Shown one piece after another: positions 5,756 to 7,234 of a stretch of DNA of 7,234 nt. The stretch comes from Chloroflexota bacterium (GTDB taxonomy: Bacteria; Chloroflexota; Dehalococcoidia; UBA3495), in NCBI GenBank assembly GCA_002697005.1, contig NZUD01000075.1:3972-11205 (forward strand), given 5' to 3'. Below the pieces are notes generated by a model. The model had not been told where the DNA came from and did not search any database. It saw only the letters and a program-made list of their open reading frames with translations. Both the position numbers and the translations under genes were made by a program. Each line of letters starts with the position of its first letter. Position 1 is the first letter of the stretch.

Positions 5756-6757
5756 ATGAAATTTGGAGTCGGCATCGTTCCACATAACTTGGACGAAACA
5801 GCGGTCAGCGCCAAGCTGGCAGAGGATCAGGGGTTCGATTACATTGGGATACCGGACTCACAATCGCTCTGGCGTGAGCTGTACCTGAGCCTAAGTGTAG
5901 TAGCTAATGCGACCAGCAAAGTCCGGATCGGCCCAACGGTTACAAATGCCCTGACGCGTCACCCCGCTGTGACTGCTTCGGCCATCGCCACCCTGAACGA
6001 GATATCAAGTGGGCGCGCTTTCTTGGGCGTTGGCAGCGGCGATAGCGCCGTCCTGAACCTGGGCTTGCGTCCGGCAAAAATGGCCGATATGCGGGAATAT
6101 ATTCAGGCGGTACGCACCATACTTTTAGGTCAGCCTTACGACTACAGAGGACGTCCCATTCATGTCCAATGGTCGGAGAATCCAGTACCCATCGTGATGT
6201 CGGCTGAAGGGCCCGAAACCCTGGTTATGGCCGGAGAGATCGCCGATGCCGTTATCGTTCACTCAGGACTAACGAAGGACGTCTTGGCCGATACTGTCGC
6301 CAGGATCAGGGAAGGAGAGGAATCTGGCGGTCGGCCGGAAGGCTCAGCCGAGATTTGGGCTTTCGCCAAGTGCAATATATCCGATGATCATGAAGAGGCC
6401 ATCGACGAAATCAAGATGGCTCTGGCTGCGTCGGGTCATCATGCATTTCGGTTCACTCTAGAGGGTAAGAATGTGCCTGAAGAGCTTGAGGAGGCTGTTA
6501 TGGCACTCCAAGGCGAGTATGTTCCTGCGGAGCATGAGCAGTTGGGCGAAACCCGTAATGCGGCTCTCAGCGATGAATTGGGCCTAACCGATTTCCTCGC
6601 CGACCGCTTCGCCGTGGCAGGCACGCCAGACGAGTGCTTAGATAAGGTGCGTGTCATCCAGGATGCCGGGGTGGATAACTTAATTATCTTGGCTATAAGC
6701 TCCGATTCAGACAACATTATTCGACGCTTTGGCCAAGAGGTGATTGCCCGCTTGTAG
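5756..6757 (+). CDS. Luciferase-like (LLM) flavin/F420-dependent oxidoreductase
   Basis: Soluble TIM-barrel enzyme of 333 residues in the bacterial luciferase-like family, in the subgroup resembling F420-dependent methylenetetrahydromethanopterin reductase. Seen: first strand KFGVGIVPHN (2-11); EDQGFDYIGIPDS (23-35); then the strong subgroup block KVRIGPTVTNALTRHP (55-70) followed by ATLNEISSGRAFLGVGSGDSA (78-98, the GxGxGDS phosphate/flavin loop region); PIVMSAEGPETLVMAGEIADAVI in mid-protein; and a late FAVAGTPDECLDKV segment, the usual 'GTPeec' helix. There is no signal peptide. It probably uses F420 or FMN to oxidise or reduce an organic substrate. The sequence does not reveal the cofactor or the substrate, and the family is heavily duplicated in some Chloroflexota and actinobacteria, so 'mer' would be over-annotation. 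ATG 5756 has AAGGA (5745-5749) at a 6-nt spacing. It lies 228 nt from aroC and is probably its own unit. Confidence 0.9.
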   Translation: MKFGVGIVPHNLDETAVSAKLAEDQGFDYIGIPDSQSLWRELYLSLSVVANATSKVRIGPTVTNALTRHPAVTASAIATLNEISSGRAFLGVGSGDSAVLNLGLRPAKMADMREYIQAVRTILLGQPYDYRGRPIHVQWSENPVPIVMSAEGPETLVMAGEIADAVIVHSGLTKDVLADTVARIREGEESGGRPEGSAEIWAFAKCNISDDHEEAIDEIKMALAASGHHAFRFTLEGKNVPEELEEAVMALQGEYVPAEHEQLGETRNAALSDELGLTDFLADRFAVAGTPDECLDKVRVIQDAGVDNLIILAISSDSDNIIRRFGQEVIARL

Positions 6758-6822
6758 CGACATATCAGCCTGGTCACGCCCGAGGAATTCGTGGACTATA
6801 GCGGGTTTGTATCTGATTTGGG

Positions 6823-6850
6823 TTGACTTGGCGACGTTATGCGCTAAACT
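6823..6850 (+). promoter_or_regulatory. Sigma70-like promoter of the selenoprotein gene
   Basis: TTGACT (6823-6828) matches the -35 box at five of six positions. TAAACT (6845-6850) matches the -10 box at four of six, with a 16-nt spacer. Transcription would start near 6857, giving a leader of about 30 nt. It lies wholly in the gap between the LLM gene and the next start codon, so the downstream gene appears independently transcribed. The 65 nt before it (6758-6822) show no terminator or gene. Confidence 0.6.
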
Positions 6851-6876
6851 AGTGTTAGCCAAATCAAGGACTATTC

Positions 6877-6882
6877 GGAGGA
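6877..6882 (+). promoter_or_regulatory. Strong Shine-Dalgarno that fixes the start at 6888
   Basis: GGAGGA sits 5 nt before ATG 6888 and is the best ribosome binding site in the window. The internal in-frame ATG at 6957 is preceded only by ACGTGG. This contrast is the main reason to start the gene before the in-frame TGA. Confidence 0.8.
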
Positions 6883-6887
6883 ACCAA

Positions 6888-7172
6888 ATGGAAGGGAAGT
6901 TCCAGATAGAGATTACCTACTGCGTAAGTTGACAGCACCACGCTGTCGCCACGTGGATGGCGAATGAATTTTTCCGGCACTATGGCCCAGATGCTGCCAT
7001 CGCTATTTCTCCCCGCGGCCAAGGCATCATGGAAGTATTCTTCAATGGCGAGCGGATATTCGACAAGAAAGGCGAAGGCAATATCTACCCCGACCTGGCA
7101 CGGGTTAGGGAAATGCGCAAGGTTATCGATGCCAAGCTTGAAAACCTCGAGCCAGCTCCTGCTGACGACTAG
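6888..7172 (+). CDS. SelW/Rdx-family selenoprotein (Sec at TGA 6930-6932)
   Basis: A 94-residue protein if TGA 6930-6932 is read as selenocysteine (residue 15). It would be a small thioredoxin-fold redox protein of the Rdx group (SelW, SelT, SelH and bacterial SelW-like proteins), whose redox centre is CxxC or CxxU at the end of the first beta strand. Seen: strand KFQIEITY (4-11); Cys12-Val-Ser-Sec15; helix AVATWMANEFFRHYG (19-33); then GIMEVFFNGERIFDKK (46-61), the typical hairpin of the family; GNIYPD (64-69), the usual pre-helix proline; and a closing helix. Homology-like features lie on both sides of the TGA in one frame, and the start has a strong Shine-Dalgarno. The Gly that often follows the Cys/Sec in animal SelW is Gln here. 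The physiological partner is unknown. Alternatives are a Cys codon miscalled as TGA, or a nonsense mutation; a SECIS-like hairpin argues for Sec. A standard caller would give only a truncated ORF from ATG 6957 that lacks the redox motif. Confidence 0.83.
6946..6963 (+). promoter_or_regulatory. Candidate bacterial SECIS hairpin
   Basis: TCGCCA (6946-6951) pairs perfectly with TGGCGA (6958-6963) around the 6-nt loop CGTGGA (6952-6957). The loop starts 19 nt after the TGA and has a G among its first two bases. Both agree with the general bacterial SECIS model as I remember it: loop roughly 16-37 nt after UGA, G at loop position 1 or 2. It would bind SelB. It lies within the coding sequence, as bacterial SECIS elements do. 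A second perfect 6-bp hairpin, GACAGC/GCTGTC with loop ACCAC (6931-6946), starts inside the UGA and touches this one by a base. Confidence 0.6.
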
Positions 7173-7197
7173 GCTTCCTTTCAAGAGCAGCGGACAC

Positions 7198-7228
7198 AAA
7201 AAGCTCTCCCGATTGGGAGGGCTTTTTT
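7198..7228 (+). terminator. Intrinsic terminator after the selenoprotein gene
   Basis: AGCTCTCCC (7202-7210), loop GATT, and GGGAGGGCT (7215-7223) form a nine-pair stem with one T-G wobble, followed by a run of T to 7228 and preceded by a run of A. The A-run makes it potentially bidirectional. It lies 29 nt after the stop codon at 7170-7172. Confidence 0.9.
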
Positions 7229-7234
7229 CTTGCT

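Follow-up and report, generated by a model that had tools for sequence, protein, structure and literature searches.

The stretch of DNA analysed here (7,234 nt, hereafter the window) holds valS, aroE, aroC, a gene for a luciferase-like/F420-type oxidoreductase and, close to its 3′ end, a short frame interrupted by one TGA codon (Table 1). At the opposite edge lies an incomplete frame of 177 amino acids (3-536), for which no Pfam match at E ≤ 0.001 was obtained. The interrupted frame begins with ATG, runs through 14 codons ending in YCVS to the TGA (codon 15), and then stays open to the TAG at 7170-7172 with no second internal stop. Two same-frame segments split by a single TGA, the upstream one of 14 codons behind a strong GGAGGA and ending in YCVS, had been reported in the preliminary description, and direct reading of the frame gave the same picture. 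The read-through product would carry the motif Cys12-Val-Ser-Sec15.

Table 1. Coordinates of the SelW-like gene and of the elements in and around it, in window positions.
Feature	Position	Strand	Remarks
Promoter-like site TTGACT - 16 nt - TAAACT	6823..6850	+	boxes conserved in relatives
Ribosome-binding site GGAGGA	6877..6882	+	five bases 5′ of ATG 6888
SelW-like (Rdx) selenoprotein gene (predicted)	6888..7172	+	94 residues, Sec at 15, TAG stop
C-V-S-U redox motif (putative)	6921..6932	+	Sec codon TGA at 6930-6932
Candidate bacterial SECIS hairpin	6946..6963	+	stem TCGCCA/TGGCGA, loop CGTGGA
71-aa ORF that a gene caller picks	6957..7172	+	without first strand and CxxU motif
Terminator-like hairpin with T tail	7204..7227	+	from terminator scan; terminator-like on the minus strand too

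Searched against Pfam, the whole read-through frame matched PF10262 (Rdx) with 50.9 bits at a cut-off of 22.6, whereas the 71-aa ORF from ATG 6957 alone reached 21.4 bits and thus stayed under the cut-off. For NCBIfam TIGR02174 (CXXU_selWTH; SelT/SelW/SelH) the score of 34.2 bits was printed as equal to the cut-off of 34.2, and the frame fell outside the Campylobacter-type SelTWH equivalog NF041051 (34 bits, cut-off 88). The structure model, which was built from 29 sequences with Sec modelled as Cys, had a pLDDT of 90.5 and comprised a strand at residues 5-12, a helix at 18-35, three more strands and a helix at 70-85, thereby placing Cys12 at the end of the first strand and Sec15 ahead of the first helix. 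Foldseek returned 22 PDB matches at E ≤ 0.001, which were chains of mouse SelW and of six bacterial entries (2oka, 2ojl, 2fa8, 2obk, 2p0g and 3dex), three of the latter labelled as SelW-related or SelT/SelW/SelH.

The model together with the PDB matches points to the thioredoxin-like SelW fold. The six bacterial SelW-related or hypothetical structures have this fold in common with the window protein (best E-value 5e-7) at 19-28% identity, and in the three printed alignments, with 2p0g, 2ojl and 2oka, their CxxC is aligned to the CxxU, Cys standing opposite Sec. Mouse SelW (2npb) and human MIEN1/C17orf37 (2ljk) have the same fold as well, with TM-scores by query length of 0.68 and 0.61 and identities of 16% and 23%, respectively. 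The designation of the segment downstream of the TGA as Rdx/SelW-like, and the proposed alignment of the 94-residue translation to the PF10262 profile, were borne out by the profile match of the whole frame and by the predicted fold.

With each GTDB species represented by a single genome, a scan yielded 45 related loci, located in SAR202, Dehalococcoidia, Chloroflexi or Chloroflexota assemblies. Codon 15 was TGA in all 45, the nearest locus (L001) having 86% DNA identity to the window over 6833-7168. Within codons 2-13, residue changes were restricted to positions 5 and 7 (44 rows, with L043 and L045 dropped), and codon 14 encoded Ser or Pro in the relatives; the most distant relative, L043, differed at more positions. 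Motifs resembling a ribosome-binding site, taken from our own list of 5-mers with no shuffle control, were located 5′ of the first codon in 45 of the 46 sequences (window and 45 loci). The exception was L043, because its aligned start is an inner codon and not the true start. No such Shine-Dalgarno-like 5-mer was found 5′ of the internal ATG 6957 in any of the 46.

In the wider phylum, Rdx matches were obtained in 186 of 400 Chloroflexota genomes, and the 90 best-scoring matches from these were surveyed. The second position of CxxC/CxxU was encoded by TGA in 61, by TGC in 24 and by TGT in five of these 90, with no codon besides TGA or Cys. The TGA of the window had been placed at exactly this position, with the prediction that homologues would have Cys or Sec in the column; both statements agree with the 61 TGA and 29 Cys codons of the best 90 matches and with the Cys of 2p0g, 2ojl and 2oka. 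Since scores in the SAR202 subfamily are lower, at about 50 bits, the survey speaks for the wider family, in which alone the exchange of Sec and Cys is visible; within the SAR202 subfamily, neither the window nor any of the 45 related loci had a Cys form. The surveyed loci (L100-L189) show that a single phylum harbours TGA as well as Cys forms, and some genomes (G150, G198, G246, G254 and G286) hold both.

A possible, though rather doubtful, reading is that this SelW subfamily strictly requires selenium in SAR202-type Dehalococcoidia, with Sec fixed across the lineage, which would imply a reaction or a partner that Cys cannot serve. A survey from 2006 noted that Cys forms of SelW-like proteins are few or lacking in organisms that use Sec (PMC1794560), which makes such a reading less surprising.

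The proposed search for the genes of Sec synthesis and insertion was carried out in the genomes of the relatives. Matches to tRNA-Sec (selC) were counted from 62 bits upwards, because matches at E ≤ 0.001 appeared in all 14 control genomes; at this threshold tRNA-Sec was present in 36 of the 45 related genomes (40 at the tool cut-off of 47 bits), and all 30 fetched tRNA loci were called tRNA-SeC with anticodon TCA. Over the cut-offs were also selB in 41, selA in 41 and selD in 44 of the genomes, and all four genes were found together in 35, including the four chromosome-level genomes (those of L033, L036, L040 and L042). The corresponding numbers over the cut-offs in the 14 control genomes were five for tRNA-Sec, two for selB, one for selA and two for selD. 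The ten related genomes missing at least one of the four genes were all shotgun assemblies. In the small assemblies G004 and G005 (1.9 and 2.1 Mb) selA, selB and tRNA-Sec were not found, and both hold selD with an in-frame TGA. Judged from these relatives, the organism of the window would possess the Sec machinery too.

The 18 bases at 6946-6963 form a hairpin of 6 bp, the loop of which begins 19 nt after the TGA, with a folding energy of -7.8 kcal/mol as a bare hairpin. It fits the rules of the bacterial SECIS model given in PMC13188914. Its loop was identical in 46 of 46 sequences, and five core pairs were kept in all 23 distinct rows. Four of these pairs never vary; the fifth is C-G in 19 rows, U-A in three and U-G in one, so that the pair has changed on both sides in three of the 23 rows and is unpaired in none. 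On a tree of 45 of the 46 sequences, the support values of which were not examined, the U-A rows L040/L041 lie on one branch and L026 on another. Both columns of the varying pair are third codon positions. Codon uniformity was 0.88 in codons 16-25 (8 codons) versus 0.59 elsewhere (62 codons), a difference with a Mann-Whitney p of 0.0003 when relatedness is not corrected for. The stretch is hence constrained, and it is hairpin-forming.

Hairpins of the SECIS type with -5 kcal/mol or less followed the TGA in all 35 distinct SAR202 rows, and were found in 53 of the 54 distinct TGA genes of the phylum versus 8 of 29 Cys genes. We ourselves chose this threshold, a hairpin search that allows no bulges, and mononucleotide shuffles, 10-21% of which reached a hairpin of -5 kcal/mol. 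Across the Chloroflexota Rdx loci L100-L189, SECIS-type hairpins thus track the TGA forms. The SAR202 hairpins have five pairs in 26 of 35 cases and, as bare hairpins, a mean of -6.3 kcal/mol, which is less stable than the -7.5 kcal/mol of the published model (PMC13188914). Folding of single sequences favoured other structures in many relatives: the minimum-energy fold contained the hairpin core in 8 of 18 distinct rows at 36 bases, 9 of 23 at 42 and 11 of 29 at 54, and the median pairing probability of the core was 0.36, 0.21 and 0.08 at the respective lengths. The consensus fold had the hairpin at all lengths tried; its covariation term, at +0.2 to +0.4, was slightly unfavourable. A search of 6700-7234 against Rfam gave four matches, all under their gathering scores. 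The hairpin is the weakest link of the selenoprotein case. With the conserved loop, pairs and codon choice set against the poor single-sequence folds, 6946-6963 is likely the SECIS, its exact structure being a candidate.

A promoter before the gene and a terminator after it had also been proposed. For the promoter, a consensus scan of its own remained at chance level (one site found versus 0.7 expected); the boxes themselves are conserved, as the window and 10 relatives all had TTGAC as the -35 box, and the -10 box was TAAACT in nine and TAGACT in two of these 11 sequences, with a varying spacer sequence of the same length. It is this comparison of relatives that makes the promoter convincing. 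The terminator was recovered as a terminator-like hairpin with a T tail at 7204-7219. In total, the terminator scan of 6600-7234 gave four sites versus 0.7 expected, two of them at 7204-7219 (one per strand) and two on the hairpin after the TGA. In the latter case, the scan scored 6941-6963, i.e. the candidate SECIS hairpin plus a T-rich stretch, as similar to an intrinsic terminator.

Downstream, a convergent gene which we read as dTMP-kinase-like from its P-loop sequence was located in 37 of the 45 loci, beginning 297-1430 bases from the start codon, and its place was taken in six loci by a gene of another cluster (c12) on the same strand. Upstream genes differed between the loci. With conserved boxes, a following terminator-like hairpin and differing neighbours, the gene looks like a single-gene unit. 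Gene neighbours were also considered as a functional clue and set aside, as they revealed no function and those upstream vary.

Among database matches, 111 of the 120 listed (of 440) were 69-73 aa long, and 110 of these 111 share the initial MA of the truncated form. Some of the short ones are nonetheless named Rdx selenoproteins. The YC motif was absent from the first 40 residues in 112 of the 120 listed. The earlier expectation that gene callers start at 6957 and lose the active site is thereby borne out, and any inference from such entries would miss the redox centre. Seven full-length entries (P0002-P0008) have Trp at the Sec site. They were considered as possible Cys forms and rejected, since the residue is Trp and gives no evidence for Cys; most simply, they result from gene calling or translation with TGA as Trp.

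Other explanations of the interrupted frame were weighed against Sec insertion. A single TGA within an otherwise open frame is what a nonsense mutation, a pseudogene or a base-call error at 6930-6932 would leave behind, but the identical codon in every one of the 45 other loci already refutes this; L001, being only 86% identical, represents a separate genome with no shared assembly error, and the remaining frame is constrained as protein, which makes the probability of mutation or error practically nil. It is scarcely more credible that TGA is a general sense codon of the lineage, for instance for Trp. The seven entries with Trp at the site would agree with it, as would the fact that no gene of the window ends in TGA; yet the five other frames of the window contain 38 TGG codons and zero in-frame TGA, 13 of the 37 frames of the adjacent dTMP-kinase-like cluster terminate in TGA, and the four Sec genes occur together in most of the related genomes. 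Very improbable, too, is a true product of 71 residues from ATG 6957, the 14 upstream codons forming a leader that stops at the TGA. In its favour, the window and all 45 loci have Met24, and the listed database entries are mostly of that length. Against it, the internal ATG has no Shine-Dalgarno-like motif before it, the upstream codons vary synonymously and are conserved at the protein level, the short form falls under the Pfam cut-off and loses the first strand with the redox motif, and the position of Met24 is not Met in many other Chloroflexota Rdx genes.

The hairpin after the TGA may be given a different role, either instead of or besides that of a SECIS. As a transcription attenuator, it would end transcription together with its T-rich tail whenever Sec is scarce and the ribosome halts at the UGA, and the terminator scan did pick 6941-6963 with the tail AATGAATTTT. 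The T run, however, begins 5-6 bases past the stem, and a C breaks it up in 12 of 44 sequences, where codon 28 is TTC; attenuation is in our view a very unlikely function. We consider it highly probable, on comparison of the sequences, that the gene at 6888-7172 encodes a selenoprotein of the SelW/Rdx family.

On this reading of the gene as a selenoprotein, it would be transcribed alone from its own promoter, and translation would begin at ATG 6888. The hairpin just past UGA 15 would recruit SelB with Sec-tRNA-Sec, so that in this organism translation presumably does not terminate at UGA 15 but continues with the insertion of selenocysteine. Cys12 and Sec15 would come to lie side by side in the folded protein, where the first strand gives way to the first helix, and the chances that they act as a redox pair are about even. 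The chemistry suggested by the family is cycling between Cys and Sec, in which peroxide or disulfide substrates would likely be reduced via a selenenylsulfide that is reset by cellular thiols. For comparison, the function of SelW-like protein was called unclear in PMC1088965, where an interaction of SelW with glutathione was also quoted. In Campylobacter SelW, likewise a small SelW with UGA-encoded Sec but of another subfamily (NF041051), UGA read-through and full-length translation were seen by Ribo-seq and peptides (PMC11955535). Eukaryotic SelW relatives differ from the gene here in having the SECIS in the 3′ UTR (PMC1088965).

The preliminary description was right in its observation, and its interpretation is supported by the available comparative evidence; its designation of the gene as an "unannotated-type" selenoprotein was not upheld, as this is no new type and SelW-like proteins form a long-known and abundant marine family (PMC1088965, PMC2398784). 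No other selenoprotein family was as abundant in the Sargasso Sea data (48 SelW-like sequences; PMC1088965) or in the GOS data (427, besides 56 Cys homologues; PMC2398784), and SelW-like proteins had the largest share (11.3%) in the list quoted from a survey of 2021 (PMC9402790). The Sargasso and GOS members have the CxxU motif and a bacterial SECIS as well (PMC1088965, PMC2398784). By the same comparative evidence, the gene described here is a real selenoprotein gene and a further member of this known family.

The value of the finding lies in the lineage, in the TGA of every relative found and in the mis-annotation. The word "Chloroflexi" occurs in the main text of neither the Sargasso nor the GOS survey; the present description supplies the host lineage, the anatomy of the gene and its neighbours. 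A full-text literature search for SAR202 with selenoprotein or selenocysteine (titles only for the latter) returned no dedicated report on SAR202 selenoproteins, and the present gene provides a well-supported one for this marine lineage. The Chloroflexota Rdx set, with its TGA and Cys forms with and without a SECIS-type hairpin, offers a ready comparison for the gain and loss of Sec. A selenoprotein candidate in its own right is selD of the related genomes: the best match contained one in-frame TGA in all 44 genomes over the cut-off, and at L098 1501-2424 and L099 1501-2418 (minus strand) this was found as CAG-TGA in both.
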